Assembly: GCA_039704465.1 (NCBI GenBank)
Contig: JASFAU010000003.1
Span: forward strand, 558,001-622,000
Length of the DNA stretch: 64,000 bases
Origin: Plasmodiophora brassicae
Taxonomy: Eukaryota; Endomyxa; Phytomyxea; Plasmodiophorida; Plasmodiophoridae
Direction of reading: 5' to 3'
The notes beneath the pieces are model-generated. The model was given only the letters and a program-made list of their open reading frames with translations. It had not been told where the DNA came from and did not search any database. Position 1 is the first letter of the stretch. The number at the start of each line of letters is the position of its first letter. Shown here piece by piece: positions 18,223 through 59,403 of the stretch. A program made the position numbers and the translations under genes.

Positions 18223-18475
18223 TATGTGATGATACGTCAAGACTAAAATCGACTGGACCGTGGCATTGCACCGATCCGGAGCGTCGCCCACCACTACCTT
18301 TTATCTGTTCGTGTCATGGCTATAATAGGCAACTTCACCAAATTTCTTCGGTGTGTCCGTTTTCATCACGCTCACACTGCGGAACAGCCGGCCGGCGTTG
18401 ATCGGACCTCAGGTGCGAGAACAAATGACGTATTCATTAGAGTTCGTCATAATTACCGGATCATCCGGTAATTAT

Positions 18476-18671
18476 TGTCAAGGACCATGTCGTACCACCG
18501 GCACACGGTGACGCCGTGACTGTGCGCGACTGCGTAACGTCCACGGCAGAGGCTCCGCCACTGACGCCGTTGTCGGTAACGGCTTGGCAAGCCCCTGTTA
18601 CACAGCGTTACGTCGCCGCCGTCTCGCGCCGATGTCGGTCGGAATAAATCACTTCGTTATCGTCTTCATCA
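18476..18671 (+). repeat. copia LTR plus adjoining tRNA-Asn-half primer site
   Basis: A 196-bp LTR (TGTCAAGG to TTCATCA) is followed at 18672 by GATTAACAGTCGTACGCG, the same primer-binding sequence used by the other copia elements here. Only about 70 bp of interior remain before the decayed Tnp2 gene begins. The same LTR occurs at 19040-19234 and, in pieces, at 45286-45447 and 46215-46268. Confidence 0.8.
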
Positions 18672-18769
18672 GATTAACAGTCGTACGCGTTCTACGCGCT
18701 TAGAGGCGGCGAGCCCACCGGCGCCCCGCGCGCCGGTGCCATCCAGTGCCAGTCCCGCGTCACTGTCAG

Positions 18770-19650
18770 ACTTGGAATTTATTTGTTCGCAATTTCGCTG
18801 GCGCGACTGGAGTCGGTCATACCACCATCACTGTTCACGATCTCGGTATGTCTACCCGCGCGCAGCATCATTGTTTTCTCTAACCCTCAAACGATGTTTG
18901 ATCAGATGCATTCCTTAGTGCATCTACCCGACATAATTCTTCGTTGGGGTCCTTTGTACGGATTTATCTGGACGTTCCCCATGGAGCGTTGGATCTTCTT
19001 TATGAAGGAGAACCTGGAATCGACGATTTCCCAAACCATTGTCAAGGACCATGTCGTACCACCGGCACACGGTGACGCCGTGACTGTGTGCGACTGCGTA
19101 CCGTCCACGGCAGAGGCTCCGCCACAGACGCCGTTGTCGGTAACGGCTTGGCAAGCCCCTGTTACATAGCGTTACGTCGCCGCCGTCTCGCGCCGATGTC
19201 GGTCGGAATAAATCACTTCGTTATCGTCTTCACAACCATTAATATCGCTGGCAATCTCCAGATGACTTTGGGTGCTGTTTTCCTACGAGGTCATTATCAC
19301 CAGTTCTATTCGGTGGCAAAGGGCAACATGCTTCTCTTTGGCGAAAACTCTGGCAGCGTCGAAGACGCTATGCCTGCTACTCTGATGATGCTGCCCATTG
19401 AAGTTCGCGCACCGCTTTCGACATACGAACTGTCAGACGTCGAGCGGTGCTGGCTGCATGCCCATATTATAACCTCTGGGCACTGGACGTTTTTATCCTA
19501 TGACCATTCGTGGAGGTACCGGTATGTCTGGTGAAGGATTTCGAAGTCACGACCAACCGGCGGATTAGTACCTTCGCGATGATGCTGGACAACCTGGCGA
19601 ATTTTGATGAATTTTGTTCGCACTACAAGTCTGCATACGGGGGAGTTTGC
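18770..19650 (+). pseudogene. second Tnp2/DUF4218 transposase, 5'-truncated, part 1
   Basis: Homologous to the C-terminal third of the transposase at 773-4619. It has LVHLPDIILRWGPLYGFIWT and MERWIFFMKENLEST (DUF4218), then, after a solo LTR is removed, INIAGNLQMTLGAVFLRGHY, then CWLHAHI and LDNLANFDEFC. The reading frame is restored across the solo LTR. It starts abruptly at about 18770 after the copia LTR piece, and it is cut at 19650 by Ty3-A. Continuations lie at 33607-33696 and 38967-39445. Confidence 0.85.
19040..19234 (+). mobile_element. solo copia LTR
   Basis: A 195-bp LTR, TGTCAAGG to CTTCACA, is flanked by the exact 5-bp duplication ACCAT (19035-19039 and 19235-19239). Removing it with one duplicate restores the transposase frame. 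Such solos arise by LTR-LTR recombination. Confidence 0.92.
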
Positions 19651-22586: not shown

Positions 22587-23572
22587 TTGACTACGGAGCC
22601 GCCACGCGAACCTGTGGAGCCGCTCTCCATCGCGTTTGTTTCCGCCGAACCGTTCTTAGACGACGTGCAAGACGGCGCAGACTGCTATGCCATCCACTAC
22701 ACATGGTCCCCGTCCGATTCCGCTGCCCACGCCGCGGAACTACCGCCGCAATCTCAGGAGTTTACTGACGTCTTCGATAACGCGGACTCAACGACTCTTC
22801 CTGATCACCGACCGTTCGACTGTCCGATTGACCTGAAACCCGGTGGCGACCCGCCGTATTGCCGTCTGTACGGGCTGTCACCCCGGGAACAAGAAGCCTT
22901 GAAGGAGTATCTCAAGATCAATCTGGAAGCTAATCTCATTCGTCCATCCCGTTCATCGGCGGGCTCCCCAATTCTGTTCGTCAAGAAGAAGGACGGTAGT
23001 CTTCGCCTGTGCGTAGACTACCGTGGTCTAAACTCTGTTACTATCAAGAACCGATATCCGGTTCCACTTATCGACCAGCTCTTGATCCAGCTGGGCTCCG
23101 GAACAAACTTCACGAAAATCGACCTCCGCAGCGCCTATAATCAAGTTCGGATCCGAGAAGGCGATGAGTGGAAGACGGCCTTCCGCACGCCGTACGGCTT
23201 GTTCGAGTACTTAGTCATGCCGTTTGGCTTAGCCAACGCGCCGGCCTCCTTCCAGTACTTCATGAACGAGACGTTCAAGGATTTCCTTGATGTATTTGTG
23301 GTAATCTACTTGGACGACATCCTGATCTACTCATCGACTCCCGAGGACCATGAACGCCATGTCCGTCTCGTCCTAGAGCGACTCCGCACTGCTCAACTCC
23401 ACGCTAAACTGGAGAAGTGCGTCTTCAATACGGTCGAAGTGGAATTCTTAGGTTTCTTGGTGTCCTCCTCCGGGATACGGGTTGACCCCTCCAGGATCGA
23501 TTGCATTCTCTCGTGGCAACAGCCGACCGACGTCCACGGGGTGCAGGTATTTCTCGGGGTCGCTAACTTCTA
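22587..23572 (+). pseudogene. Ty3-A reverse transcriptase (interrupted 5' part)
   Basis: Contains LRLCVDYRGLNSVTIKNRYP, FTKIDLRSAYNQVRI, MPFGLANAPASFQYFMN and the catalytic VVIYLDDILIYS. After VANFY the Tc1/IS630-like element is inserted; the sequence continues as RKFVPHFAELALPLTNLTRD at 25714-25774. Confidence 0.9.
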
Positions 23573-25711
23573 CCACCACGGGAAGATGAATTTGCATGAC
23601 GGGGACGAAATTTTTGCATGGCGGGGACATAATTTTTGCATGACGGGGAACAAATTGAAGGATGACGAGCACAAAAATAATGGATCGTGATGCATGTATT
23701 TTGTCTCTCTGGAACCGATTGCTGGAGCGTTAGGTGCGTGCGCGTGGCGGCGGCTCAGCGAACAGTGCCATGGGCGCCGCCGCCTCCCGGAGAACGCACC
23801 TGTGCGTCGTAGAACCGCTCGACGATGTCTTTAGTCAGTCGTGAACAACCAAACATATCACGAAGATGCTGACAACGGCTCGGTGTAAACTCCTCATAAA
23901 ACTGGGGCAGGTAACTGTTCAGTAAATCATCCACTTCCAAAGATCCCGTCGGACACATCCGCTCCTCGTCTCCATGGTGTGCACACTCGTACAACTTTTG
24001 GGTGAAGACAGGTCGCCGGTCCTTGCAATACGATAGGAATTCCCTCATGTGGTCGTACGTCTGACGGATATCGTCTGTTGTTATTTGCCGAACTTCTTCT
24101 ACTAGTGCTTGCTTGCTGCTTGCAATTGACCGCTCGTCCGAGGAACCGGCAATCCAATTGAGCCATATACGGATCTTAATAAGCGCGAACAGTTCTTCAC
24201 AGGGATCGAGAAAGGGCGAATATGGCGGAAGGAACTCAAGGACAAGGTGGCGAGCGACCTCGTCGCGTCCGAAAAAGGCCTCCACCGAGCGAGCATGGTG
24301 AAATCGAGCATTATCCAAAATGAACAGCCGTGGGCGACCATTCCTGGAAGTATTCACATACGATTTGACCAAGTTGTTGCAAAAAGCGAGGAACGCGTCA
24401 CCATCAATTGTCTTATCGAGAACTTCGTACCATACAACCCCAACTGCTGGGCTCACAGCAAGCAGAAGCGAAACGTGGCGTCCTCTGACCGATTCTTCAA
24501 CCAGAGACGGAATCCAACCGCGAACGGACCAGATTTTTCGGTTGGCAATCCGAGCCAGTGGCATCTCATCGTAGTAGATCGCGTCATAGAGCGGGTTCGG
24601 GCCGAACTTCCGGCGATATTCTTCCGACTCCAGACGGGCAATGTATCTGAACCGATTGTCGATTGTTTCTGGCGCATTGCGTTGTACGTGGAAGGTTTTG
24701 AAGTCACCAAGGCGGAACCCTGCCCTACGCCGCAAGTGTATACCAAGAGTCTTCCGGGACACGACGACATGGTAGGACAACTGGAGAAACGCGGCTGCAA
24801 GTGTCAGTGTCGCACCAGGGAGCAGAAACATGAATCGCGCTGCAGCATTCAACATCTCATCCGACAGCTTCCGCGGTCGGCCTCGAGCAGCACCGTCGCG
24901 GGCTTGCGATACCCCGTTCAAATGACGGGAGACCGTTGACTGAGCACAGCCGACCTCGCGTGCGATCTCCACCTGCGATCGCTTGCCGTCAAGAGCATGC
25001 ATAATACGATCTTCGTCTTCGTCGATGTGTGGCTTCCGCGGGAGAAGAGCCTTACGAAATCGCTCTGGAACAGATTCGACAGCGACTTCGTCGGCCGACA
25101 GTCGGGCCTGCCACTCGACCAATTCGTCAGCGAAGCGTCGTTTTCGGTCGGCGACTTGATGGATGCGGTCGATCGCCCTGTCAGCAACAGCCCGAACATG
25201 GTCAGCAGCGCTCTCCATTTGCTGCAATTGCTGGTATGCGCGCTGCCGAGCTTTTTCGCAGTCGATTTCACAGAGCCTAGGGTCCGACGCGATTGTAGGG
25301 TCCAAACGAGGAATCCGCTCCGGGTTCATCGCAGGACGACCGACTCGCCTACGAGCGGACGTCTGCGACGATTGCAACCCTCCTACCTACCGTGGGATAT
25401 GAAGTCAGAATACGGTACGGTAGGTCCGTCGGCGATACTGTACGGTATCCGCTTACCGTTATCGGTTGTATCCCTGCCATTGTTCTGGTGACGTCGTCCT
25501 GCAACGGTACGGTAGGTACACAGTTAGGCGGCCCGCTCGTCCGTCCCGAGCCGATCCATTTATTTTGGGCCACTCATCCACGCATTTCTTCCCCGCCATC
25601 CATTCGTTGTGTTCCCCGCCATCCTTCAATTTGTTCCCCGTCATGCAAAAATTATGTCCCCGCCATGCAAAAATTTCTTCCCCGTCATGCAAATTCATCT
25701 TCCCGTGGTGG
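23573..25711 (-). mobile_element. Tc1/IS630-like DNA transposon, 2139 bp, in Ty3-A
   Basis: Inverted repeats of about 85 bp start CCACCACGGGAAGATG at both ends. The target duplication is TA (23571-23572 and 25712-25713). The repeats contain iterated GCATGACGGGGA units. One minus-strand transposase gene fills the element. Removing it restores Asn-Phe-Tyr-Arg-Lys-Phe in the host RT. Confidence 0.95.
23755..25329 (-). CDS. Tc1/IS630-like DDE transposase
   Basis: Frame open from 25377; the first ATG is at 25329. It has a helix-turn-helix region (about residues 135-200, with EIAREVGCAQSTVSRHLNG) and a DDE core: first Asp in AIYYDEMPL, second Asp in RLFILDNARFHHA, Glu in PPYSPFLDPCEELFALIK. The second Asp and the Glu are separated by 38 residues as I count. 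The C-terminal tail (to 23755) is longer than in Tc1 and ends Gly-rich. A deleted relative lies at 46282-46802. The frame is intact, so it may be active. Confidence 0.88.
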   Translation of the reverse strand: MNPERIPRLDPTIASDPRLCEIDCEKARQRAYQQLQQMESAADHVRAVADRAIDRIHQVADRKRRFADELVEWQARLSADEVAVESVPERFRKALLPRKPHIDEDEDRIMHALDGKRSQVEIAREVGCAQSTVSRHLNGVSQARDGAARGRPRKLSDEMLNAAARFMFLLPGATLTLAAAFLQLSYHVVVSRKTLGIHLRRRAGFRLGDFKTFHVQRNAPETIDNRFRYIARLESEEYRRKFGPNPLYDAIYYDEMPLARIANRKIWSVRGWIPSLVEESVRGRHVSLLLAVSPAVGVVWYEVLDKTIDGDAFLAFCNNLVKSYVNTSRNGRPRLFILDNARFHHARSVEAFFGRDEVARHLVLEFLPPYSPFLDPCEELFALIKIRIWLNWIAGSSDERSIASSKQALVEEVRQITTDDIRQTYDHMREFLSYCKDRRPVFTQKLYECAHHGDEERMCPTGSLEVDDLLNSYLPQFYEEFTPSRCQHLRDMFGCSRLTKDIVERFYDAQVRSPGGGGAHGTVR

Positions 25712-25713
25712 TA

Positions 25714-25774
25714 TCGCAAGTTCGTTCCCCACTTCGCAGAACTGGCCTTACCGCTGACAAATCTCACGCGTGAT
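25714..25774 (+). pseudogene. Ty3-A RT/RNase H connection fragment
   Basis: Encodes (Y)RKFVPHFAELALPLTNLTRD between the Tc1-like element and the TRIM, matching the equivalent Ty3-C sequence YRKFIPHFGEIALPLTNLTR. Confidence 0.9.
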
Positions 25775-25785
25775 TGAAAAACGCG

Positions 25786-25856
25786 GGCGCCGCTGGGAAT
25801 CGAACCCAGGGCCAACGGTTGAACGTACCGCTGCTGTACCACTCAGCTACGGCGCC
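25786..25856 (-). other. tRNA-like sequence in TRIM 3' LTR
   Basis: 71 nt on minus, fold: acceptor GGCGCCG/CGGCGCC (7 bp), D stem GCTG/CAGC, anticodon stem GCGGT/ACCGT, T stem CTGGG/CCCAG with loop TTCGATT. A box TAGCTGAGTGG and B box GGTTCGATTCC fit the Pol III promoter consensus, and CGCGTTTTT follows. The anticodon would read GTT, but position 33 is C, not the invariant U, so a working tRNA is doubtful. Confidence 0.8.
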
Positions 25857-26033
25857 TGAAGTCCGACTGGCGTGAGGATTGGATGTATGTAATTCCTGAC
25901 ACGCCCCCTCAATCCGTAGCCAGGTGTGACGATGGTGTCTGTCCTGGGATCTACTACGGAAGAGGGCCCATTGGCGCCACGCATTTCTGTATGGCTATGT
26001 ATAGCGCATACGACTGTTAATCTGAAAAACGCG

Positions 26034-26104
26034 GGCGCCGCTGGGAATCGAACCCAGGGCCAACGGTTGAACGTACCGCTGCTGTACCACTCAGCTACGG
26101 CGCC
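26034..26104 (-). other. tRNA-like sequence in TRIM 5' LTR
   Basis: Identical second copy of the tRNA-like unit, in the upstream LTR relative to the element's sense strand. In this position a Pol III transcript could start in the 5' LTR, with a T5 stretch at the LTR end as terminator. Confidence 0.8.
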
Positions 26105-26149
26105 TGAAGTCCGACTGGCGTGAGGATTGGATGTATGTAATTCCTGACA

Positions 26150-26819
26150 GTGATAACGTGCCGTTTCGTTGGGACCAATCGGTAGAAGCCGCATTCACGG
26201 CGCTCAAGGTTGCTTTCACGTCAGCCCCTGTCCTTGCTCATTTCGACCCAGATCGCCCGTGCGAAGTGGAAACGGTTGCTTCCGATTTCGCGGTGGCAAT
26301 GGTATTGTCGCAGCGGGGGCCCGATGATGAACTTCACCCGTTGGCATTCTTCTCGCGCAAGCTCGCGCCTGCTGAGATCAATTTTCCTATCTACGACAAG
26401 GAACTTCTCGCGGTCGTCCAGACCTTCGAGAAGTGGCGTCAGTTCCTGGACTCATCGCGGCACCAGACCGTCATCCACAGCGATCATCGGAATCTGGAGT
26501 ACTTCACCAGCACTCACAAACTGAATCGTCGTCAAGTCCGATGGTCCCAACTGCGTAACGAATTTGATTTCGTTATCCAACACCGACCAGGCCGTCTTCA
26601 TGGCAAGGCGGACGCCCTGACTCGTCGCCCCGAATACGCGCCTTCTGATCAGGATGAGGTTGTGCTCCAGCAGTCACTCCTGCTCCTTCCACCGTCGCGG
26701 CTCGGGCCAGGACCTCTACAGGAGGTCCAGACCCACGTGACCGATACTCCAACCGACGCACTCCGATCGTATCCGCCGCAACCAAGCTTCCGACCCGTTT
26801 GTGTGCCGCACCCGTCAGC
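26150..26819 (+). pseudogene. Ty3-A RNase H and tether
   Basis: Continues DNVPFRWDQSVEAAFTALKV, VETVASDFAVAMVLSQR (the position of the first catalytic Asp of related elements reads Ala here: VASDF versus TDASDF in Ty3-C), LAPAEINFPIYDKELLAVV, HSDHRNLEYF and RQVRWSQLRNEFDF. It is cut at HPSA by Copia-1. Confidence 0.88.
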
Positions 26820-27003
26820 TGAGAAGGACAATAATGAAGTGGATGTATTACGTACGGCGTGTGCGGCGGACGTTACAGTGGCGACGTAGTCGCCGACGGT
26901 GTAACGGTTGCCAACGCCGGCGGGCACGGAGTCGCGGAGTGCGTGACGGCGTTCACGTGCTGCAGGCATGTGCTGCTGGTCGTAGTGGATACGTTGTTCG
27001 ACA
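26820..27003 (-). repeat. Copia-1 3' LTR
   Basis: 184 bp, TGAGAAGG to TTCGACA on plus. Identical partner at 31873-32056. Confidence 0.95.
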
Positions 27004-30000
27004 CGCCCCCTCCAGCAGCACACGGCCTGGGACTTGTGTCGATGATGCCGGCCAGGAGCAGGTTCGCATGATACGAGGTGCTGAGAGCGGGCTTCGTGAG
27101 GTAGTCTGCAGCCATCTCGGCGGACGGGCACTTGTGGACCACGATCAAACTGGCCTCGACGGCCTCCCGGGTGTAGTGAAACTGCACCTCGATGTCCTTC
27201 GTGCGATCATCCATCCGACGATAGCCAGACCAGGCCTTCGCGCCTTGATTGTCCTCGTATACGATCGTCGGACTGGAGCGTGCGAAGCCGATTTCGGTCA
27301 GGAATGACCGGATCCAGGCCAGCTGGCGGGTAACAGCACACAGCGACTTGATCTCTGCATGTGTGGACGATAAGCTAACTTTGACTGCGCCCAGGTCTTG
27401 GCGACGTGACTGCCAGTGCACGGGGCCGCCAGCCAGCAGGATGATGTGGCCGGAGCGCGACCGTCGCGTGTCAGGGTCGGATGCCCAATCAGCGTCGGCG
27501 TATGCGATCAGACGATCTTCGGGCTGGCGTTCGTATCGGATGCCGTGCGTCATGGTGCCGGCGAGGTACTTAAGAACGCGTTGCCCCGCACGCCAATGCT
27601 GGATGCCGGGATTCGAGGAGAATTGGGCCAGTACATTCGTTATGTACGCGATGTCGGGACGGCATCGATGGGCGAGCCATGTCAGGCAGCCAATAAGTTT
27701 GAGGTACGGCTTGGTCGCCATTTCGTCATGGTCGAGGTCGCTTTGTGGACTCATTGTCGTTGATAGGTGAACGCCAGGCTGGTGCGGCGTGTCGACCGGA
27801 TGACAATGCGACATGTTGAAGTCGCTCAACACCTTCTCGATGTACTCGGCTTGGTCAAGGGTGATGGCGCCGGTGCCAGGTTCGCGTCGGATGCGCATGC
27901 CAAGCAGGGTCGACGGTTCACCTTGATCGGTGATCTCGGCCATCGTGGAGAGCTTCTCGAGAACGGATTCCGCGAACGGGACGTCATTGTACGCCAGCAG
28001 ACCGTCGTCGGTGTGCACCGACATGATCATGAACTTTCCATCGCGATCGTACCGGAAGACGCAGGGGTCCGCGATGATCGATTCGAATCCGAGTGATAAC
28101 AGCATCTCCCGAAGCGTCTTGTACCAACGTTCGGCGCCTTGTTTCGTTCCATAAAGGGCCTTTTGCAGTTGACGAACTCGGTACGGGACGTGATGATCGG
28201 TGAAGCCATCCGGCTGACGAATGTAAACATCATGGAGCATGTCGGCGTTCAGGTATGCGGCCACCCAGTCGACCTGGCGAAGATGCAGGCCGTGCTGCGC
28301 CGCGAGCGCTAGGATAACGAGGAACGCAGTGGCACGGGCGGTCGGCGCGAACGTATCGTCGAAGTCGATGCCGGGGCGTTGTCGGAAGCCCTGAGCACAG
28401 AGTCGGGCGGTGAACTTGCGGATGCCACCGTTGCCACTGAGCGAGGACTTCACTCGGAACACCCACTTGGCGCCAACAGCGATCTTACTTTTCGGCAGGT
28501 CGATTAGCGGGCCGAACGTGTCCTTGGCGTCCAGTGTTGCCATCTGGGTGACGGCGGCGTCCCACCAGTGGCCAGCGAAAGGTGATGAGAGGGCATCGGC
28601 CATTGAGTTGGGTACGGGAATGTCGGTCGCTTTCAGCTTCGACAGGTCGGGTCGTGGTAGACGGGCTGGGTCGATCGGGGCGGATACCTTGGCTCGACAT
28701 GCCTTGGCAGCTGCGCCGCGACATGTCGGACGGTTGGACCTGATGGCCTGATCGATCAGACGGCGCTCCTCAACCTGCTGCCAATGCCGGATCAGTCGGC
28801 GGGAGCGACGAGGAGGGCGCTGTGTCGGGAACGTTAGGGTCGGATTCTGGAACCAGGCGTCGACCGTCGAGGACCACCGTGTCGACGAACGATTGGCCGC
28901 CTCCGGCGCCTTCCACCATTCACCAGGCGGTTGACGACGACGATTCGATCGGCGAGGGCGTGGCACGTCGATGACATTGTGGTCAACGATATCAGCAGCA
29001 TCGGAATTGTCGTGGACGTCGGGGTCGGCAGCTTCGTTGGGAGAGTCGTTGCTGGACGCCGAACCTTCGTAGTCGGGATCATCTTCAGCGTCATCATCAT
29101 CTTCGTCGGTGGATACGTCATCAGGAGACGGTGAGCGCGACGGTCGGACGATCTCGGAAGGCGATGACGCAGCGGCAGGTGACGGAGGCTCGGGAGGGGA
29201 TGCTGCGAGAGAGGATGCTGACGTCGATGGTAGAGGTGCCATGACGGCGTCGGAAGAGACGGGCGTCGGGACGATCGTGTCAACGTTCGGCGCAGAGCTC
29301 GACTCGGGACTGGACGGTGGCGCTGATGATGAACTAGCAGGGCTGGATCTTCCAAAGCCGAATGTGAACGAGGTCTCCAGGAACTCGGCAGTCGTGCTCT
29401 CGAACGTGTCTTCCCGGTCCACGTCGTAGAACCGCCAAGCCTTCATGCCGGGCGTGAAACCGATAAACACAGCGCGAACACGACGAGGCTCCAACTTGCT
29501 CGGCTTCTTCGTGGCTGGATGCGGTCGCATGGCATAGGCATCGCAACCGTAGACACGAAGGGCCGAGATGTTAGGTAGGGCGCGACGAGCAGCCTCGAAC
29601 GATGTGCGACGCCCGGGAAGGACTGATCTCGGGTGGATGTTGTACAGTATCGCAGAGTAGGACAGCGACCAGGGCCACGTGGAGTCAGGCATGCGAGAGT
29701 GGCACCGGATTGAGCTTTCGATACCGCAGAGCGTGTGGTTGACGCTTTCAGCGCGGCCGTTCTGCTCGGGCGTGTACGGGACAGATTTGCGGTGCAGGAT
29801 GCCGGACTCGTTGTAGAACAGGACGCACACGCCTTGAGTTGTACTCGCCGCCACCGTCGGTCTGGAACGTCCGGATACCACGTCCTTCCTGGTTGCGAAG
29901 ACGCGCGTCATAGTGCTTGATGACGTCGAGCGCCTCCGATTTGCGACGTAGCAGATAGACGGACAGGTACCGAGAGGAATCGTCCAGCATGGTCTGGTAG

Positions 30001-31829
30001 TACTCAAAGCCGCCGACACCGACGACAGGCCACCGTCCGGACAGATCGCTATGGACGAGATCGCCAACACGACGCGCGCGCGACGTACTGGGAGGGAATG
30101 ATGACCGTTTGCCCTTGGCGAGTAAACATGCAGCGCATGGACATCGATCTTGCGGCCTCGGGATTGGCCCGTCGAACTTCATGCCACGACAACGTTTGTG
30201 CAGGATGCGCAGGTTGCCGTAACCCAGGTGGCCGGTTCGAGCGTGCCAGACAGCTGGAGCTGCGGCGGTGACCTTAGCGACGCGGCATGAGACGCTGGAT
30301 GCGATCAAGGAGCAGACTCGGGCAGAGTGAAGTGTGCCGGGCGCGGAGGTTGGAGCGGATAATGGAATCCGGTACAGGTTATCGTGTCCTCGTTGACTGA
30401 CGGCCACTGGCTGACCGACGGGCGCCGTCCAGTTGGCCCCCGAGTAGATCTTCGCGGTATCGCCGTCGAACACGATCTTGTGACCTGATCTGGTGAGCTG
30501 GCCAACTGATACTAGCGCTTGGCCAAGTCGGGGAACGTGCAGCGAATCGATACTCGTCGCCTGGACATCCATGCCGAATGACGTCACGCCTCGACCGGAA
30601 GTGGTCGTACGCGACAGATCGGCTAGCTCAACTTCCGGTCCGGTGCCTTGGCGATAGCAGCTGAGATGTCGGCGCAGGGGCGTCATCGTCGTGGAACACG
30701 CTGAGTCCAGTAGGCCTACTGAGTTCGCGTACACGTCGATGGCGTGGCGTGCCGACAAAGCACGCATCGGCTCGGGCGCCGGATCGATCGGATGAGCGCC
30801 AGACGTTGGATACTCGTTGGACGTTGGTGAGGATGTATTGCTTTTCGCGTTGCTGTCGCGGTACCAGATGTGTCGTTGCAGCGTGCATTCGCCGTTAGTG
30901 TGCTTGGATCCGGGATGGAAGACGCAGGACTCGTTGCGTCGTGGTCCACGGGGACGCGTCGATGTGGCGCAACTGGAGCGGTTGGCCGTTTGGAACGCGT
31001 CGTGTCGGTCCCGCACGTCTTGGACCCTGATCTCCTCGCTTGTCAACGACCCGACGACCTCGGAGACACTGGGCAGCGTGTCCAGAGCACGATTGTGCAG
31101 GCCAGCGACGACGGCGTCGAGATCGGATGATGCGTTGGCCAAGATGAGGACGGCGACCAATGCGTCGGTGAGGGACAGCATCTCGGTCGGTACCGTCGAC
31201 CGGACGCGATGAGCCGCTGCTTGAACTCGGGCGGCGTACGTGGCGACCGACTCGCCGGGCATGTGCTGGACCGTGACGAGGTCGCGGACGGCGCGCACGA
31301 CCGATGCCAGCGACGACGGGCTGTACGCCTGGAACAGCACGCGCCAGCACTTGGCAGCCGAGCCTGCCTGAAACAAAGACAATGCGGACGCGATCTTGTG
31401 GTCCAGCATGTGGACGAGTAGAATCTCGCGCGCGGCTGCCTCGAGAGCTGGGTCGTGTGCCGTACCGGTTGTCGCAGTCGGCGAGCCATCTTCGTTGATC
31501 CCGATGACGTCCGCGTACCCACGATTGCGAAACCAGAGTGCAGCTGTCTGAACCCAGGACGTGAACGAGTCGGGAGTACCGTCGAACTTGGGCATGGGCA
31601 GTCGGCCTGCGTCGCTTCGGCTGTGCGCCTCGGCGATGATCGGCATGGCCGGGGTCGATGGACAGCTGGTCGGACGCGCCAGCTGCTGCTGCAGGACACG
31701 GAGACGGTCGATCTTCTCCTGCCTGGCGATCGTTGCCTCCGCTTCGGCAATTCGGGTGTCGATCTCCTCGAGCGACAGATGACGCAGCGGGTCGTCATCC
31801 GTGTTAGGCGTCGCCTGGCGCTCGGCCAT
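26873..31829 (-). pseudogene. Copia-1 gag-pol polyprotein, one frameshift
   Basis: ATG at 31829. Gag region with FTSWVQTAALWFRNRGY and AREILLVHMLD. A Cys/His knuckle CVFHPGSKHTNGEC differs from the usual CCHC. Protease GLLDSACSTTMT. Integrase zinc finger HARTGHLGYGNLRILH with CPCAACLLAK; DDE residues in HSDLSGRWPV, FQTDGGGEYNS and TPEQNGRAESVN. A one-base deletion near 29840 breaks the frame between the second Asp and the Glu; Copia-2 has the extra base. RT has WVFRVKSSL, QVDWVAAYLNA and catalytic SVHTDDGLL in place of YVDD. RNase H includes AYADADWASDPDTRRSRSG and ends at about 27000, reading slightly into the LTR. Confidence 0.9.
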
Positions 31830-31872
31830 GGCGAGTAGAGGCTCAGCGCCTGCGCCTATACGACTGTTAATC

Positions 31873-32056
31873 TGAGAAGGACAATAATGAAGTGGATGTA
31901 TTACGTACGGCGTGTGCGGCGGACGTTACAGTGGCGACGTAGTCGCCGACGGTGTAACGGTTGCCAACGCCGGCGGGCACGGAGTCGCGGAGTGCGTGAC
32001 GGCGTTCACGTGCTGCAGGCATGTGCTGCTGGTCGTAGTGGATACGTTGTTCGACA
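31873..32056 (-). repeat. Copia-1 5' LTR
   Basis: Same 184-bp sequence as 26820-27003. The interior primer site abuts it at 31872. Confidence 0.95.
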
Positions 32057-33696: not shown

Positions 33697-33872
33697 TGTG
33701 CCGGCTCCAAGCTATAAGACAAGAATAGCTGTGATCCGGCTAGGCCGCCCTAAGAATGACGGACATGCACGGAGTGCGCACGGAGTCCGCACGGCGTCCG
33801 TGGGAGCTGCAGGTCGGGGACACAGACGATTATACTACACGGCTGATATACCATCACCGTTGGGACGTCACA
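33697..33872 (+). repeat. Ty3-B 5' LTR
   Basis: 176 bp, TGTGCCGG to GGACGTCACA. Identical by eye to 38791-38966. Confidence 0.95.
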
Positions 33873-33920
33873 GAGATCTCTTGAACATCCTTTCGGGGAA
33901 GGTTTCAAAGAAGGACGCGA

Positions 33921-35465
33921 TGGTGGCCACCGCGCAGGAGATGCTGCTGGAAGATGACGTCGATGATCGACAACAAGGACAGAGCGTGCAAGGCTCAACG
34001 ATCGTCCTGCAGATGAACAAGGCGCCGACCTTGAAGAGCATGGACCGCAAGGCCGTCACGACGTTCATGGCCGAGCTGAAGACGTATCGGAATCACTTCC
34101 GGGACGATCCGAATGCCAAGGGCCAGATCCCACGGTCAGTGAGGAGTATGATCGACCCCGGTCTGCTCAGGGCGATCTGCAAGTGGGAACTCGGCACGGA
34201 CGCCGAGGGGGTGACGGAGAGCGACCTGATGGACTGGATGAAGAGGCATCTCGAGCAGGATCGCTCGACGGACGCGAACATCGACCGGGAGATGCGGAAG
34301 CTGGCGATGAAGCTGACCATCACCACACAGCCAGCGGGGGGTCGTGAACCTCGTGCAGCAGTACGAGGAATTGGTCGCGCGCAACGGGTGGCAGGACCTC
34401 TTCACGTCCCGCGAGGGACGGAAGAACCTGGTCAAGTACCTACTGGGTGCTGTGCGCCCATCCGGTTTACAAGCGCTCATGCGGACCCTCGTCATGAAGC
34501 GCCAGACCGATCTCCAGAAGGACCCTTTGGAATTCTATCGGGTGCTGAAGGAACGAGCTGCATCGTATGAGGAGACGATGTTGTACATGGAGCCGGGACG
34601 TGAGGATGGCAAGGGGAAGGGAAAGGTCAAACCCACCCCGAGGAAGCGAGGGGCGCAGACGGATGAGGGAGGCGATGGAGGCCGGGACACGAAACGACAC
34701 CGGAAGGACCTGCGATGTTTCAACTGTGACGAGGTTGGACATCCAGCGTTTCGTTGCCCGAAGAAGCCTACCAAGAAGCAGGTCGCAGACCTGCTGAAGG
34801 ATCGCCGCAAGGGGCCAACGGGAAGGGATGGACCCCGTAAGGCCAAATCTGATAAAGATGACGACTTGTCAGAGTACCCATGGCTTCCAGTGGTAGGAAG
34901 AGTGTCGGAGGGGGCGCAGAGGACAGGGGACCAAGTAGTCGTTCGTGTAAACGGACATGAGGAAGACTACGTTGGGGTTCTGGACAGTGGAGCGACATCG
35001 GTTGACGTTCTGATGCCATTGACCATAGCGCGCGAGCTAATGGAGCGGGACCCATTGTTAACAATGGAGAACCTCCAGAAGCCGGAAACGTTCTGTCTGG
35101 TAGACAGAGAAACGAAGCACACAGCCTACCATGTGATGATACTGGATCTGGGACTGACGACGACGGCAGGCGAACTGATCACTCGCCGGCGCCGATGCCT
35201 TGTATGGGACATTCCTGAAAAGGAAATAATCCTAGGGGAGAGGCTGTTGGACGACTTGGGTATCCACCCAAAGAAGGCCCTGGACGTACTCATTAAGAGC
35301 ACGCCGAAGAAGGGGAATGACGTCATGGATGAAGTGCACAATATGGCAAACGAGATGCCACCTCTCTGGGAAGGGGAGGAAGAGGAAACAGAGGATGTGA
35401 GGATCGGAACCGATTCCACAGACTCCCTGGAAAGGAGATGGACGGGATGGTCGAGCGCGCATTGA
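33921..35465 (+). pseudogene. Ty3-B Gag and protease, frameshifted
   Basis: Gag with MDRKAVTTFMAELKTYRNHF, then a frame change at a GGGGGG run near 34340 into QYEELVARNGWQDLF. Zinc knuckle CFNCDEVGHPAFRC (34718-34759). Protease VLDSGATSVDVLM (active Asp). The frame stops at 35465 after an acidic tail. The exact Gag start is uncertain; the first Met of the body after the LTR is near 33920. Confidence 0.8.
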
Positions 35466-36948
35466 GGAATGGCCTACCGCAAGCGATGGGGAAATCGCTT
35501 CGGAAACTCGTCAGAAGATATAGGGACGTTTGGCGTATGAGCATTGGACCTGATGGTCCAGCCAGGGTTACACCATTTGTCACGGAGCTGAAACCGGATG
35601 CGGAACCTTACAGGTGCCGAGCCAGAAAGTACAGTATGGAGGACAGTGCTTTCATGGAGGAATTCGTCGCCCAATTGAAGAAGTATGGCCTAGTCGTTGA
35701 AAACTACAACGCGAAGTGGGCTTCACCGGTGGTGGTGGTGACGAAGCCAGGGGCGGAAAGCGGTTCTGTGTTGATCTCAGAGCTGTTAATGCCAAATGTG
35801 TCGCCGTGGCGTGGCCTATGCCACATCAGGAGGAGGCGATACTCAGGAACCTGGCAGGCTCGAGGTTCTGGTTTAAGCTAGACGCGTTCAAAGGCTTCTG
35901 GATGATGCCGCTGGATGAAGCGTGTCAGGAGATCTTCTCCTTCATGACAGATAAGGGGGTGTATAAGCCAACGAGGTCGATGCAGGGGGGAATGAACTCC
36001 GCCCCTCAGTATCAAGGGAGGATGTTTGAGGTGTTCGGGGAACTTATGTTCCACAAACTAATCATATGGATCGATGATCTAATGGGGCATGCCCAAAGGG
36101 AGGATGATTGGTTCCGAACGTTGGAACGGACTCTGATGCTAGCCGAACGGCACAGCATCAAGTTCAACGTGGAGAAGTGTGAGCTCTTCACAACAGAGGT
36201 TCGGTTCTGTGGAAGGATATTCACGCCAGAAGGGGTAAGGCACGATCCTGCTAGGATTGAGGCTTTAATGGCGATACCACAGCCGAGGACGGCAAGGGAC
36301 TTGCAACAATTCCTTATGGCAACTCAGTGGATGAGTAGGTCCATCCCTGAGTACAACAGGAAGGTACACCTGTTACAGAGGATATACGAGGATGCAATGA
36401 AGGACCAACCTGGCAGGACGAAAGCCATTGCCAGGAGGGTGCGATTGTGCAAATATGGATGGTCACCCGAACATGCGCTGGCATTCGAGAAACTGAAGAT
36501 GGCAGTGGCGGACACGGTCCAACTAGCGTACCCGCGAAAGGACCGGATCCAATGCCTATTCTCAGATGCAAATGAGGTTAACAGCGCGGCGGTAGTCACA
36601 CAGATTCCGCCTGAGGACTTGGGTAAACCAGTGCATGGGCAGCGACATGAACCGCTGGGTTTCGTCGGACACAAGTTCGCGGGCCCAGAGCGGAACTGGT
36701 CCACGGTGGAGAAGGAAGGGTTCGCGATCAAGGATGGGATTGACAAACTGGACTATCTCGTTACAACCAACGAGCAGTTTCGTTTGTTTACCGATCATAG
36801 GAATCTCGTGAGGATATTCTCACCAACGGACGTGTCAAAGCCAAAGCCAACGGCGCAGAAACTGCAACGATGGGCACTGGACATACAGAGGGTCAACTAC
36901 GTCATTGAACACATTGCGGGGAGGACAATGTGTGGTCGGATCTTATGA
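35438..36948 (+). pseudogene. Ty3-B reverse transcriptase and RNase H, frameshifted
   Basis: RT starts with LRKLVRRYRDVWRMSIGP and ASPVVVVTKPG, changes frame at a GGGG run near 35750, and continues RFCVDLRAVNAKC, FWFKLDAFKGFWMMPL and the catalytic LIIWIDDLMGHAQ. RNase H has LFSDANEVNSAAVVTQ and LFTDHRNLVRIF. Stop at 36948, immediately after a GGGG run (36918-36921) where one extra G would keep the frame open into DNVWSDLMTRWG. Confidence 0.85.
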
Positions 36949-38592
36949 CGCGGTGGGGTGCACCGGACGGTGGGCCTGATGACCAGCACCTAGAGGTACG
37001 CACGATCAGGAGGATAACGCTTCAAATTGAGGACGGATATCGGGTACGGCCGTTACAAAGGAAGGAATTCCAATGGCCGACCGTGGACGAAATCCGTAAG
37101 GCTCAGAGGAAATGGCTCAGAGGAACGAAACGACCGAAGAATGGTGATGATCTCTTCGTCACAGGGAAGGGACAGGTGATCATACCAGACGAATGCAACG
37201 AGCTGAAGCTGCAGCTATGCGCTATTGCTCATGCGGGCGGAAACAGTGGGCATCTAGGACTGAAGGCCTCGTTGAGGAAGTTGGGGAGTTCTGCCATTGG
37301 GCACACTGCGATGAGGACATGAGGACGTTCTGCAACGCGTGTTTGAACTGTCTACCGACAAGGGGCGGGGTTAGGATTCCCAGGCCATTGGGAACAGCTG
37401 TTCATGGTGTTAGGCCGAATCAGGTGATTCACTTGGATTGGCTATACATGATGGCGGCTCAGAAGGGCGGAAGACATGATCTGCAATGGAACCTGATAAT
37501 CAGGGATGATCTGTCTGGCATGGTCAAGATTACTCCTGACCATACACCCAATGCGGAAACCACTGTAGAGGCACTGCTCGAATGGAGGGCTATCTTCGGA
37601 ACGTTTGAGTTGATGGTGTCAGACATGGCGTCTTGCTTTCTGGCAAACGTTGTGAAGGAACTGGCGCGTCGATGTGGATTTGCTCATCACCCGACTGTTG
37701 CCTATGGGCACTACAGTAATGGATCAATTGAGGTGATCAACAGGAACTACTTGCAACTAGTCAGAGCACTTCTGTCTGAATTGCAGTGGGACAAATACGA
37801 TTGGCCATGGTTGAACCACAACATTGAACACACGATCAAATCACAGGTCGCAGGCGCGTACCAACGGGAATGCGCCAGTGACAGTGATGATGGGACGTCA
37901 ACCAGACAACCCGCTGAAGCAAGTGTTCAAGAGGCCAGGGGATGAGAAGTATGGGGAAGCTACACTCTCAAAGGAGCATATTCAGGAGCTAGTCATGCAA
38001 TTGCAGACGTCGCTGAATGAAATGCACAAGGGAGCAGTGCAGCAATCGAAGAAAATCCGAGCCGTACACAGGAAGAGGAGCGACGCGTACCGACGAGCAA
38101 CTGCACCGAACTTTCAGATCGGTGACTATGTACTCATCGGATTGCCTGAACCGGGTAAGGTTCCGGGCAAGAAGCTCTTTATGAAGTGGCGGGGCCTATA
38201 TCAAATAACTGATAGCCACGAGAACTACACCTACGAGGTGAGGAATATGTTCAATGAGACGGACACTCGAACCGTTCACGGGGACCGCGTTCGCCTCTAT
38301 GAACATGGCAAAGTGAATGCCACTGAGGAACTGAAGACAGATGGATTATGACAATGAGCGTTTCGCCATTGAAGTCTTCAAGGACTGCAGGCACAGTCCG
38401 GAGACAGGGGAATTGGAATTGTTGATCGGATGGAAGGGTTTCTCTGAAGCGGAGGATTCATGGGAGCCAATCTGCAGGTTGGCGATGGATGTACCGAAGC
38501 TGGTGAAGGCACATGCCGCCAGGATGAGGAAGGAGAAACATCACCTTGCTGATGAGGTTAAGGAGTTACTTAAGGCGGAAGGAGTCCAGTAG
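36949..38592 (+). pseudogene. Ty3-B integrase and chromodomain, frameshifted
   Basis: HHCC zinc finger with AIAHAGGNSGHLGLKASL and CNACLNCLPTRGG. A frame change sits at GGGG near 37282 where the partial copy at 45717 has GGGGG. Core Asp near HLDWLYMMAAQKGGRH, Asp in MVSDMASCFLAN and Glu in YSNGSIEVINRNYLQ (Glu in place of the usual QTER context). Further frame changes lie near 37860 and 38341. Chromodomain ELLIGWKGFSEAEDSWEPIC ends at 38592. Confidence 0.82.
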
Positions 38593-38790
38593 GCTAGTCA
38601 TGCTTTTTTCCCGGATGCGCGCTGGGTTATTTTAATGCCGACGGCCATGTGACGACAGAAGCCAAAACTGTGTTCTACGAAGATTGAGACTTAATTATGT
38701 TAATTAGACTATATTAAGGAGAAGACATGATTAGGATACACCACCACTGAAGACACCTGCAAGGAGGAGCATTTCTTTGAAGGAGGGGAA

Positions 38791-38966
38791 TGTGCCGGCT
38801 CCAAGCTATAAGACAAGAATAGCTGTGATCCGGCTAGGCCGCCCTAAGAATGACGGACATGCACGGAGTGCGCACGGAGTCCGCACGGCGTCCGTGGGAG
38901 CTGCAGGTCGGGGACACAGACGATTATACTACACGGCTGATATACCATCACCGTTGGGACGTCACA
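38791..38966 (+). repeat. Ty3-B 3' LTR
   Basis: 176 bp, partner of 33697-33872. About 200 bp of non-coding sequence separates it from the chromodomain stop. Confidence 0.95.
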
Positions 38967-40275: not shown

Positions 40276-40465
40276 TGTCGAACTCCATATCCAGCAGCAC
40301 ACTCGTGCAGCACACCGACGCTGCCACGCACTCCGCAAGTCTGGTGTCAGCGCCGCCCGCGATGATGTAACGTGCACCGCGTCTCACGTCTACGACGTTG
40401 CCCGTCACACCCAATATCTTCGCTCTATATCCATCAATATATCTCACTCTGATTTCGTCGTTTCA
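40276..40465 (+). repeat. Copia-2 5' LTR and primer site
   Basis: A 190-bp LTR starting TGTCGAAC like Copia-1 and ending GTCGTTTCA, followed directly at 40466 by GATTAACAGTCGTAACCGCG. No 3' LTR is present. Confidence 0.8.
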
Positions 40466-40514
40466 GATTAACAGTCGTAACCGCGCTCTGGGCGTCTCGC
40501 TCGCGTCCAACGTC

Positions 40515-41535
40515 ATGGCCGATCGCGGCCGAACGGCGGAGTCAGATGTCCAAGATCTCGACGCGCAGCTCGCTGAGGCCGAGCGACAGGAGAAGATCGC
40601 GCGCATCGCATTCCTGCGACAGCAAACCGCATCGTACTCCTGCATCGCCACGACGCCGACGACGCAGCCTCGCCCAACCATTGTGGACGGCGTAGTGCGT
40701 CCAGGTACAGATCGCGTGCCTCCGCCTCGGTTCGACGGCAAGCACGAATCGTTTGCCGCTTGGGCGCCCGCCGCCGCGTCTTGGTTTACCAACCGTGGAT
40801 TCGCGGGAATCGTCGGCATCGATCTGGACGGATCGCCGACTCCGAGTATCCCCGACAATGTGGACGCGGATCTGGAGGCAACTGCTCGGGAGATACTCTT
40901 GTTTCAGATGGTCGACAAGACCGTTCTGATCGGCTACAACTTGCTGTACGCCGGTACATCGGCGCAATGCTGGCGCGCGCTCTTCCGCATGCTGCGACCC
41001 TGCACGTTTTCGTCTGTCATTCGTGCTTCTAAAGATTTGTTCAGTGTTCGACAGCAAGCCGGTGAATCGGTCGCCTTGTACGCGGCTCGTCTGCAAGCCG
41101 CTGCCCAACGTTTCCGTACAACAGTCCCGAACGACATGCTTCACATGACGGATTCCTTCCTGGCTGTCCTGATGGCTGGCAACGCCTCGTCAGAATTAGA
41201 CACGGCCGCATCCAACCTGCACAGTCGTGGACTCGAACCGCGGCCTACCGTCACTGAGGTCGTGTCCACGCTCACATCAGAAGAGCAGCGCATTCAAGAG
41301 GCTCATGCTGACCGGGAGATATCGTTCGCAACGGCGAACCGTGCAAACGCCACCGCACACCCGATCAAGGCTCCCGAACGCGATGGACTGTGCGTCCTAC
41401 ATACGACCTTGAGGAAGCCGCACACGAATGGCAACTGTTTCCTACAGCGCTCGTTGTGGCGGACGACATCGAATACATCGTCGCAACCTGATCAGTACGT
41501 CCCGGTTCGCGCCATGTCTGCCCGTCACCAATGCC
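40515..41535 (+). pseudogene. Copia-2 Gag, truncated
   Basis: ATG 40515. Intact Gag with FAAWAPAAASWFTNRGF, AREILLFQMVDKT and YAARLQAAAQRFRTTVP, similar to Copia-1 Gag, and CVLHTTLRKPHTNGNC in the knuckle position. It stops matching at RAMSARHQ (about 41535). From there the DNA continues into an inverted copia pol fragment, so an open frame to 41882 is an accident of antisense reading. Confidence 0.82.
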
Positions 41536-55738: not shown

Positions 55739-58700
55739 ATGCCAGCCGGGTCTGTCGGCACGATGGCGGATCTGCGAAGTACCGCTCTGTCTCTCTTCAT
55801 TATAGCCCATGCAGTAGCCAACCTCGACGTGGCCGGGTGGTCACCCGGTTCGATTCCGGATCCAGCCCCGTCGCTGCTCGTGGCCGATGTTGACCGCCCG
55901 CTATCGCTGATCAATCTGTTTGGCCTGCTCGACCGAGCCGGTGCCGTAACCGTCATGCTGTCACGTCAGTTTCACTTGCAGGCCGGGGAACCGAACCCCA
56001 TACACGTTGTATTCAACATGTCCGTTCTGGACCAGCACGTAATATATTTGCCCGAGCCATCAACGAACGATATACTTATGCCATAGGCACTGGATCTTGG
56101 CATGGTCAGGTTTCGCTGGCGCCACTGCCTTATAGGTCGGATATCCTCAAAGTTCTGCCCCGGCAAACTGTCGATCTGGGACCACGCCCCGTAGCGTACA
56201 CCGAGACCCAGGTACCCATTGACGTGATGGAATTCACTACAGCCCCGCCACTGATACGCTGCGGTGCGCTATCCGTTTAGATTCGTAACCTAGACACGGA
56301 CCATGCACCGGTATTCGTCATCAACCATCTCCTTTCGTTGTACGTCGACGTCACTAATACTGGCGTCCGTCTGTTGCCTGATGCATATGCATGATTGCCC
56401 AGCACGTCCGTCTCATTCGATAACCCTTTCAACAATGTCGTCCTTCGCATTCGTCAGCATGCTATACGGGCGTCACTGGCCGCGACTGTCTATCGCGTTG
56501 CCGACCGTATCATTCAGCGCCTAGCGTCGCCGTCCTGGACCTGCGCTATATTGAAATCCGACACGAGCCTCAATCGGGCCCTGCGGGATGGGCCAGTGTA
56601 TGTCGTGTCTCGGCAAGCTATACCCGGGCTAGTTCGTCCCAACGTATACTGGCATCGAACCCTTTTCGACCAGGTTCGCTGCCCATGATCTGGATATATA
56701 TGCCCAACGTCTCTGACGATAACGTACCGTCAGGTCGCAGAGAACGATATCCCACGTAGCCGAGCGTTTCGCGAAGCCGTCTCCTTTGCCGTGTGTGCCA
56801 AGGCGCCGTCGTTTGTCGTCGACCCCGGCTGGACATCAGCAGGTTTGGTGCGCGAGCTTCGGCAGTACCGAGCGGAGCGGTGGTTATTGATCGATGCGGA
56901 TGCACCCAGGGTGCCCGATGTGCGGTGCCCCACTGCGTATTGCTATAGTGATGATGCGCCCGCTGACGATGCCCTGTTACATCGCCTGTTCCTTCTGTAC
57001 CGCGAGCAACGTCAGCCTGGTGTCGCTGTCGCCTGTATGCGTTCCAAGGTGGCAATTGGCGCTGACGATTTTGCCATGCTGGCGGACGTCTACCAAACGC
57101 ACGGCCGTCTGGAGGACGCCGAGTTGGCCTATCAGGATGGCCTAGCGTTGTTTCCGGGGCACTATGCCCTTCTCGTGAATTACGGTTCGTTTCTGAACAG
57201 TGTGCGCCCATCGGACGCGGGTGCTCTATTCGAACGGGCTGTTGCCGCTGTGCCTGACGGCCCGGAAGGTCTGTATAACCTGGGAATGTATCGCCATGGC
57301 ACGGGCGACTTGGAATCAAGTCATCGTCTGTTGCGCCGAGCCATCCAGCTGCGTGCTGAATTTCCCGAAGCGCTGGAAGGTCTAGCAATGGTCGAAAGGG
57401 ACCTGAACAATGAGCGGGCTGCCGTACAGGCGATCGAATCGGCACTGTTGCAACGTCGTGAACCATCGGCCGCATCCCACAACCTGTACGGCGTCATCCT
57501 GCAGCATTTCCAGCACCTGGATCAGGCCGGCGCCGCCTTCCAGCGTGCTGTTGATATTGATGGCGATTTTGTCGATGCGATCGTCAATCTGGGCTACCTT
57601 CACCTGACGCAGTACCGTTCGTCCATCGGCCATCGCGGTCTACGTCTGCCCGACGATCGGCTGGCCGTCGAAGAAGCCAAGTCCATGTTCGAGCATGGTA
57701 TCCTGGCGTCAGCGCGCACCGGCTCCTCACCCGGCTACGCCTATGCTAACCTGGGCGATCTGTACCAGGACCTGGGCTCGCTGTCCGACGCCATGGCGGC
57801 TTATGAGCATGCCCTGCAAGTCTTGCCAACCTTTGACGCCGTGTTCTGCAACCTTGTCCGAGCTCGGGTCCAGGCTTGCCAATGGGATACCCGGCAAGCC
57901 GACATGGAGCGATTGCAGAACGATATCCTGCCGGTGCAGGTCACGTCCCGCCACGGGCACATCTGCGTCCATCTGTTGCATGCCTTGTCATATGACAGCA
58001 TCGACGATGAGCTATTGTACGGCATGGGCAAACGCCTGGCCGACGACGCCGAGGCGCGTGCACCGGGCCCGCCACCCTCGTCATGGGCTACGTTTGCCAA
58101 AGGCGCTTATCGAATCGCCATGTTCGATAGTCGGCACGTGACGGTATCACGCCCAACTGTCGTCTTCATGTCGTCGGACCTCAGAGACCATCCGGTTGGA
58201 CGCCGCCTCCAGCACTTCTTCTCCTTCATTGACCGTCGACTGATTCGCGCTGTGGCCGTCTCGACGACGCCTGACGACGGCAGTGTTGAGCGCCAGCAGA
58301 TTATGGCCGATGTCGAGGTATTCCTCGACCTATCGTCTCAGTCGTCGTCGTCGTCCCTCGTCGCACGTCTTCGTCAGGAGCGGGCCAGCATCGCGATTGA
58401 CCTGAACGGGTATACAAGCGGGGCGCGATCCGATGTGTTCGCGGCGGGCCTCGCGCCGTGCCAGGCGCTCTTCCTCGGTTACGCTGAGACGCTGGGCAGT
58501 CGCTCGATGCCCTATCTGATCACGGATCGTATGGCGTCGCCCGTGGAGATCAGCGACCCGCCCTATATCCATGAGCGCCTGGTGTATCACCCAGGCGTGC
58601 ACGTGTTCAGCGCGTACACGAGAGAGTCGGGTACAGGCCCCGGTATGCGCCTTCCACGATCCGATCGGGTCCACCTCGGGTTGCCCGTCGATGGCATCGT

Positions 58701-59403
58701 CCTGTGCAGCTTCTCGCAGCTGTACAAAGTGACACCGACCATGTTCGCTGCTTGGATGTCCATCCTGCGACAGACGCGAGGCACGGTCCTCTGGCTGCAG
58801 GAGGCCATTGTCGTCGGCGCTGCTGACAATATCAGGAAGGAGGCGGAAGCCGCCGGCATGGCCCATCGCGTCATCATCACGCCGAGCCAGCCCGCCGAGA
58901 CACACCTGGCTGTCAAATCGCTGGCCGATCTGTTCCTCGACACGTTCCCGTACAATTCGCACAGCACGGCGGCAGACGCCCTGTGGAGCGGGGTCCCCAT
59001 TGTCACGCTCCAAGGGCCACGCCTCGTATCGCGTGTCGCCTCGGCGCTGCTGTCGTCGCTGGGCCTTGACGAGCTCATCACATACGATATCGACGAGTAT
59101 GTGCAGGTTGTCGTTGACATTTGCAAACGACCTGGCATTCTCGATCAGGTCAGGCGTAAACTCGCTCGAGGCGTCCGCCAGGCGAGCCGGGCGACGTTCT
59201 CCCCGTCGGCTTACATGGACGGGTTCCACCGCGTACTATTGGCCATGGCCGAGCACGCCGCCATCGTCACGAATGCGTCGACGCCCCGTCAGTACGCCGC
59301 GCCCATGCATATTTTCATTGGGCAGCAACGTGTCTACTGGGATGATGCAGAGTCGTTGGCGTCGCGGCAATGCCGTCGCGGTCAGGTTGTATCCGCGTTC
59401 TAG
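55739..59403 (+). CDS. O-GlcNAc transferase (GT41) with TPR domain and long N-terminal extension
   Basis: Transfers GlcNAc from UDP-GlcNAc to Ser/Thr of nucleocytoplasmic proteins. Five exons join in frame: 55739-56038, 56110-56211, 56281-56339, 56403-56673, 56734-59403 (introns 71, 69, 63 and 60 nt, all GT-AG; 1133 codons). The first about 330 residues match nothing I know. TPR-like repeats follow (NYGSFLNSVRPSDAGALFER; YNLGMYRHGTGDLESSHRLL; YANLGDLYQDLGSLSDAMAA). The catalytic half has SSDLRDHPVGR (His of the HPxxH region), IDLNGYTSGARSDVFAAGLA, CSFSQLYKVTP (the Lys that contacts UDP), LDTFPYNSHSTAADALWSGV and VSRVASALLSSLG, all hallmarks of OGT. The first two introns are less certain than the last two. 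Confidence 0.9.

Follow-up and report, generated by a model that had tools for sequence, protein, structure and literature searches.

A Helenus-type TRIM with tRNA-like LTRs and a likely Copia helper in the rhizarian Plasmodiophora brassicae

The genome of Plasmodiophora brassicae, a rhizarian and the clubroot parasite of cabbages, harbours a family of TRIMs whose LTRs each carry a tRNA-like unit. By its anatomy the element is of the Helenus type. The explanation we favour, with a probability of about 80%, is that this Helenus-type TRIM is transcribed by Pol III and mobilised by Copia proteins. It was found in a stretch of 64,000 nucleotides (hereafter the window; positions 558,001 to 622,000 of contig JASFAU010000003.1) from an assembly that totals 25.3 Mb in 21 contigs. 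In the published e3 assembly, 25 Mb of nuclear sequence is spread over 20 contigs, with one further contig for the mitochondrion (PMC6823432). A reading frame at 56689-59400 of the window is identical to a P. brassicae protein over residues 74-904 and differs in the first 73. This one protein assigns the window to the species, in agreement with the contig numbers. It is O-GlcNAc-transferase-like and nuclear; the label 'mitochondrion' that its record bears at the source is apparently a slip.

Anatomy of the element

The element is a 375-bp LTR-interior-LTR unit on the minus strand, at 25775-26149 of the window. Its direct repeats, 25775-25901 and 26023-26149, are 127 bp each and 100% identical. 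Since the tRNAs in both LTRs lie on the minus strand, the element reads on that strand, which makes 26023-26149 the 5′ LTR and 25775-25901 the 3′ LTR. Outside them stand the two copies of the target-site duplication GTGAT (25770..25774 and 26150..26154), as read from the sequence, with empty-site copies elsewhere in the genome. The interior (25902..26022, minus strand) is 121 bp long and holds no gene; in element sense it begins with GATTAACAGTCGTATGCGC and ends with GGATTGAGGGGGCG. At its start, adjoining the 5′ LTR, lies the primer binding site GATTAACAGTCGTA (26009..26022, minus strand), the antisense of the tRNA-Asn(GTT) anticodon arm, and at its end the purine tract GGATTGAGGGGGCG (25902..25915, minus strand) adjoins the 3′ LTR.

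Two LTRs, a total of 375 bp (below the 1000-bp bound), a 121-bp interior and no protein are the features of a TRIM. The initial annotation had proposed this architecture, with two identical 127-bp LTRs and a GTGAT duplication; repeat comparison and flank reading confirm both, and LTRs, duplications, primer site and purine tract together support the class. Its account of a 121-bp interior running from a copia primer site to a purine tract also stands, with the addition that the primer site matches the tRNA-Asn anticodon arm.

A tRNA-like unit within each LTR

ARAGORN and Rfam (RF00005, cut-off 29 bits) both detect a single minus-strand tRNA in each LTR, at 26033..26104 in the 5′ LTR and 25785..25856 in the 3′ LTR. 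The Infernal-type check suggested in the initial annotation thus succeeds for both LTRs, at 57.6 bits. The tRNA described there is present in each LTR, and only its length of 71 nt needs correction: with the last base the unit measures 72 nt, corresponding to 71 model positions. Reading the sequence against the consensus places the A box at 26086-26097 and 25838-25849, and an exact B box, GGTTCGATTCC, at 26044-26054 and 25796-25806, in the 5′ and 3′ LTR respectively. T5 runs follow at 26025..26029 in the 5′ LTR and at 25777..25781 in the 3′ LTR (both minus strand), the latter the presumed transcript end. Both boxes and the T5 run had been reported, and all are there. The unit has four paired stems and the anticodon GTT, and position 33 is C. 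As a rule, U33 is otherwise invariant in tRNAs.

The anticodon and the paired stems are what one would expect if the element dispersed a functional tRNA-Asn gene, yet we regard this as very improbable. C33 replaces U33, as the initial annotation had already argued; the loop and body of the unit differ from those of native tRNA-Asn; the best alignment among 23 native predictions, a subset of the native genes, is to tRNA-Ala, not Asn; and in one LTR on contig C16, where the anticodon stem has changed, ARAGORN loses the anticodon. Searching the assembly with the 72-mer (up to E 10) returned no match beyond the ten LTRs of the family described below and no native tRNA gene close to the unit. As bare RNA the 72-mer folds with a z of -2.1, 4 of 200 shuffles being as good, and its minimum-energy fold is not a cloverleaf.

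A tRNA-gene array or a single tRNA insertion does not fit the repeat itself, which is 127 bp long and not the size of a tRNA body; five native tandem tRNA pairs or triples (L084, L085, L086, L041, L037) repeat over 73-97 nt only. We also rejected a candidate second tRNA-like LTR at C1:1103489, where a B-box-like GGTTCGAGTCC lies ahead of a primer site. The 74 bases ahead of that site recur about 0.7-0.8 kb from the primer sites of another LTR family, mostly in opposite sense, which identifies the locus as an inverted piece of that family. For the annotation of P. brassicae, the LTR units mean that LTRs can be counted as tRNA genes.

Genomic copies and the empty site

Queried in turn with the whole unit, the LTR, its tRNA part and the interior, the assembly yielded at least ten LTRs and at least seven loci, both counts being lower bounds. 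Every LTR found (10 of 10) carries the tRNA unit, at 96-100% identity. Two full copies, in the window (C3) and on C15, are identical and have their own duplications, GTGAT and GCTGC; a solo LTR on C14 shows one difference and is flanked by GACAT. Exact 5-bp duplications therefore accompany all three insertions whose outer ends are both intact. On C16 there is a partial tandem of interior and LTR, with diverged and shortened LTRs, and the copies on C12, C2 and C1 are joined to Copia-type sequence. The C2 copy stops at interior base 11, where it is fused to a folded-back Copia fragment; no second ACCTT duplication was found at a Copia LTR end for this copy, so it was left out as helper evidence.

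The insertion in the window also has an empty counterpart. Its joined flanks match seven uninterrupted genomic copies of the target repeat, six across the full 153 nt and one across 7-153; the remaining four of the 11 rows in that search are two partial matches and the two flanks of the window insertion itself. This is a real family, and some of its copies are young enough for identical LTRs. The initial annotation had named copies without the tRNA part, or a lack of further LTR-interior-LTR copies with duplications, as signs against its reading. The genome search for the LTR and full unit found the tRNA in all ten LTRs and a second full copy, flanked by GCTGC, on C15.

A neighbouring Copia family as likely helper

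Less than 1 kb from the TRIM lies a Copia element (26820..32056, minus strand) with identical 184-bp LTRs at 26820-27003 and 31873-32056, a primer site at 31859-31872 (minus strand) and the duplication GCTGA. One of its frames (26876..30178, minus strand) contains RVT_2 (169.5 bits) and SH3_retrovirus; the other (29751..31925, minus strand) contains Pol_BBD and GAG-pre-integrase above the cut-off, and integrase core and copia gag below it. TRIM and Copia both have the half-tRNA-Asn primer site and 5-bp duplications, their purine tracts agree in the last nine bases, and GAGGGGGCG directly precedes the 3′ LTR in both. Against the antisense of the native tRNA-Asn(GTT) anticodon arm, the TRIM interior matches at 19 of its first 20 bases, and the Copia primer region matches native tRNA-Asn(GTT) antisense at 16 of 20.

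The 14-mer of the primer site, allowing up to one mismatch, occurs at 101 genomic sites (53 forward, 48 reverse), compared with 4 for a reversed control. Thirty of these loci were extracted. At 15 of them ATGGCC follows downstream within 60 bases, 12 are members of a short LTR family that lacks the ATGGCC start, and the other three comprise the window element, a rearranged piece and a tRNA-Asn gene. This second short LTR family shares the primer site and has no tRNA in its LTR (ARAGORN), so the tRNA unit is not needed for using that site. It is seen at 18474-19232 of the window and at C2:1514725-1517696 (L068-L072), the latter an array of tandem units of about 740 bp with a GGGGGCG tract before the LTR.

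Of the seven Helenus loci, four have an RVT_2 match no more than 5 kb away, where random placement gave a mean of 0.24 and reached four in 1 of 20,000 draws; two of the four (C12 and C2) are physically joined to Copia, so that this test is not independent of the composite described below. Six of the seven are within 30 kb, and the C1 copy is 187 kb from the nearest match. Distances to RVT_2 were used because clustering of primer sites would be partly circular, the 100-site list including the Helenus sites themselves.

That the TRIM borrows Copia proteins, as initially proposed, is supported by the common primer site, purine-tract end and 5-bp duplications and by one composite, and on these sequence features the neighbouring Copia family is the likely helper.

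Primer-site and Copia reverse transcriptase matches cluster at about one place on most of contigs C1-C20; these places may correspond to the candidate centromeres mentioned for this species (PMC6823432). Copia-type copies on C1 and C2 (L049 1-1181, L053 7416-7489, L052 4380-4748) hold inverted, folded-back pieces of the same family, which might reflect self-integration or abortive cDNA.

Other elements near the TRIM include a gypsy-type element (33697-38966) with identical 176-bp LTRs and RT and RNase H domains, whose flanks share just four bases, CGTC; it is unlike the TRIM in primer site, purine tract and duplication. Just beside the TRIM is a DNA transposon (23571-25713) with inverted ends of about 115 bp (93%), 22-bp repeats in its end and a DDE_3 transposase frame at 23758-25386.

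Helenus and Copia joined at the primer site

The composite on C12 reads, in order, TGCAT, a Copia LTR (291971-292154), primer site, Helenus interior, Helenus LTR, primer site, Copia body, a Copia LTR (297273-297456) and TGCAT. Its two Copia LTRs are identical, one duplication flanks the whole, and the 5,065 bp from the second primer site to the end agree with the window Copia at 99.7% identity. Both switches fall inside 15 bases common to Helenus and Copia at the primer site. On C1, a 94% identical Helenus LTR with its primer site runs into another primer-sharing family, which is 98.6% identical over 877 bp to the window copy at 40461-41334 and is followed by an inverted piece; no Helenus interior lies directly upstream of the switch. 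This other family is taken as Copia because RVT_2 matches occur 4.1 kb downstream of two of its C1 primer sites; its first frame in the window has no Pfam match. Of the five junctions between a Helenus LTR and a primer site (C3, C12, C15, C16, C1), three lead into Helenus interior and two do not.

Either joint reverse transcription with strand transfer or recombination with a one-LTR circle would explain the C12 order. Under the former, Helenus-type elements exist in Rhizaria and would be co-reverse-transcribed in a particle with an identified Copia helper, and the C12 composite and C1 hybrid would be products of strand transfer at the shared half-tRNA-Asn primer site; we hold this tentatively, at a little short of an even chance. 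Annealing at the primer site is a normal strand-transfer step. Alternatively, the composite could have formed after integration, by recombination between an integrated Copia and a one-LTR circle of Helenus across the 15 shared bases. A single crossover of interior plus LTR (248 bp) at the primer site yields the C12 order, and the partial tandem on C16 is what circles or unequal exchange can give; however, 15 bp is short for homologous recombination, and C1 shows a primer-site switch as well, out of a Helenus LTR into a different body, with no Helenus interior directly upstream. We give the circle, too, a little under half the weight of belief. If joint reverse transcription is the true course, a match to the helper's primer site would be the bond between a Pol III TRIM and a helper whose LTRs are unlike its own, and switches at that site would create new LTR-body combinations.

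Proposed transcription and life cycle

Transcription by Pol III would begin close to the tRNA unit in the 5′ LTR, sometimes pass the first T5 and end at the T5 of the 3′ LTR. The resulting RNA, about 330 nt long, would carry the tRNA unit twice, once at each end, as its repeat R; given such a start and a stop in T5, R would measure about 80-85 nt and U5 about 2 nt. This RNA would enter Copia particles, half of a tRNA-Asn would prime the first strand and the purine tract the second, and the Copia integrase would insert the product.

The idea that a T5 run is a weak terminator in P. brassicae, not long enough for Pol III to stop at, is not supported. After 23 distinct nuclear tRNA predictions, a subset of the genome's tRNA genes from which nine C21 loci taken as mitochondrial were left out, the first run of at least four T is T5 in 10, the commonest class, T4 in 7, T6 in 4, T7 in 1 and absent in 1, a doubtful 'Pyl' call. 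T5 is thus a normal tRNA-gene terminator in this host, at which Pol III should frequently halt while still in the 5′ LTR, so that a template would arise only by read-through. The ends of other LTR families here are also pyrimidine-rich before CA, and T5 therefore need not descend from a tRNA gene.

Some weight falls on the view that the tRNA unit is a passenger and that the same element, with the same helper, has its RNA made by Pol II as in ordinary TRIMs: Pol III would meet a T5 stop in the 5′ LTR too, and ARAGORN finds no tRNA in other LTR families that share this primer site, one of which accounts for 12 of the 30 fetched loci. We nevertheless consider a passenger unit unlikely, since both boxes are kept in 10 of 10 LTRs found, including the 94% identical one on C1 (most copies being too young to weigh much), and just 45 bp of LTR lie ahead of the tRNA unit. 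The boxes and this short upstream stretch fit Pol III transcription.

Comparison with known systems

TRIMs with tRNA-derived sequence in their LTRs were named Helenus by Kojima in 2024, with fungi, animals and plants as hosts (PMC10886601). The proposal in the initial annotation of a new tRNA version of Cassandra is therefore not supported, the kind having already been named. The P. brassicae element agrees with Helenus in being a TRIM below 1 kb with a primer site, a purine tract and a tRNA-like LTR sequence with boxes A and B (PMC10886601). Its 5-bp duplications are of the fungal and plant Helenus type, and fungal Helenus mostly use anticodon-loop primers with a presumed Copia helper, much like the anticodon-arm primer here; among them, tRNA-Asn-GTT was chosen as primer once (PMC10886601). 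The host is different, a rhizarian as opposed to fungi, animals and plants, and here the candidate helper lies in the same genome and has recombined with the element. The terms Rhizaria, Plasmodiophora and protist do not occur in the main text of PMC10886601, a 2026 meeting report mentions Helenus and, in its accessible part, names no new host, and limited lists of the open-access literature yielded no report of a tRNA-bearing TRIM in Plasmodiophora or another rhizarian.

Cassandra is likewise a TRIM with Pol III gene sequence in its LTRs, but this is 5S rRNA, not tRNA, its hosts are plants and its Pol III transcripts have been validated (PMC10886601). No 5S rRNA was found in the LTR here, the window's only Rfam matches being the two tRNAs. 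tRNA-derived SINEs are also short mobile elements with a tRNA-like internal promoter, but they are without LTRs or an LTR-type primer site and are moved by non-LTR elements. Neither Ty5 of yeast nor copia of Drosophila is known to have a tRNA unit in its LTR. Both are autonomous and live in other hosts. They resemble the system described here in belonging to the Copia superfamily and priming the first strand at a tRNA anticodon region (PMC10886601).

The kind of element, a tRNA-bearing TRIM, is thus already known; the host lineage and the likely Copia helper are new. P. brassicae adds the SAR supergroup to the fungi, animals and plants in which tRNA-bearing TRIMs had been described, implying either multiple origins or a wide spread. 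The element, its likely helper, the empty site and the recombinant junctions are found together in a single 25-Mb genome, where two questions left open by PMC10886601 become testable: the Pol III drive, called unproven in that work, and the tie between a TRIM and its helper without shared LTR sequence.
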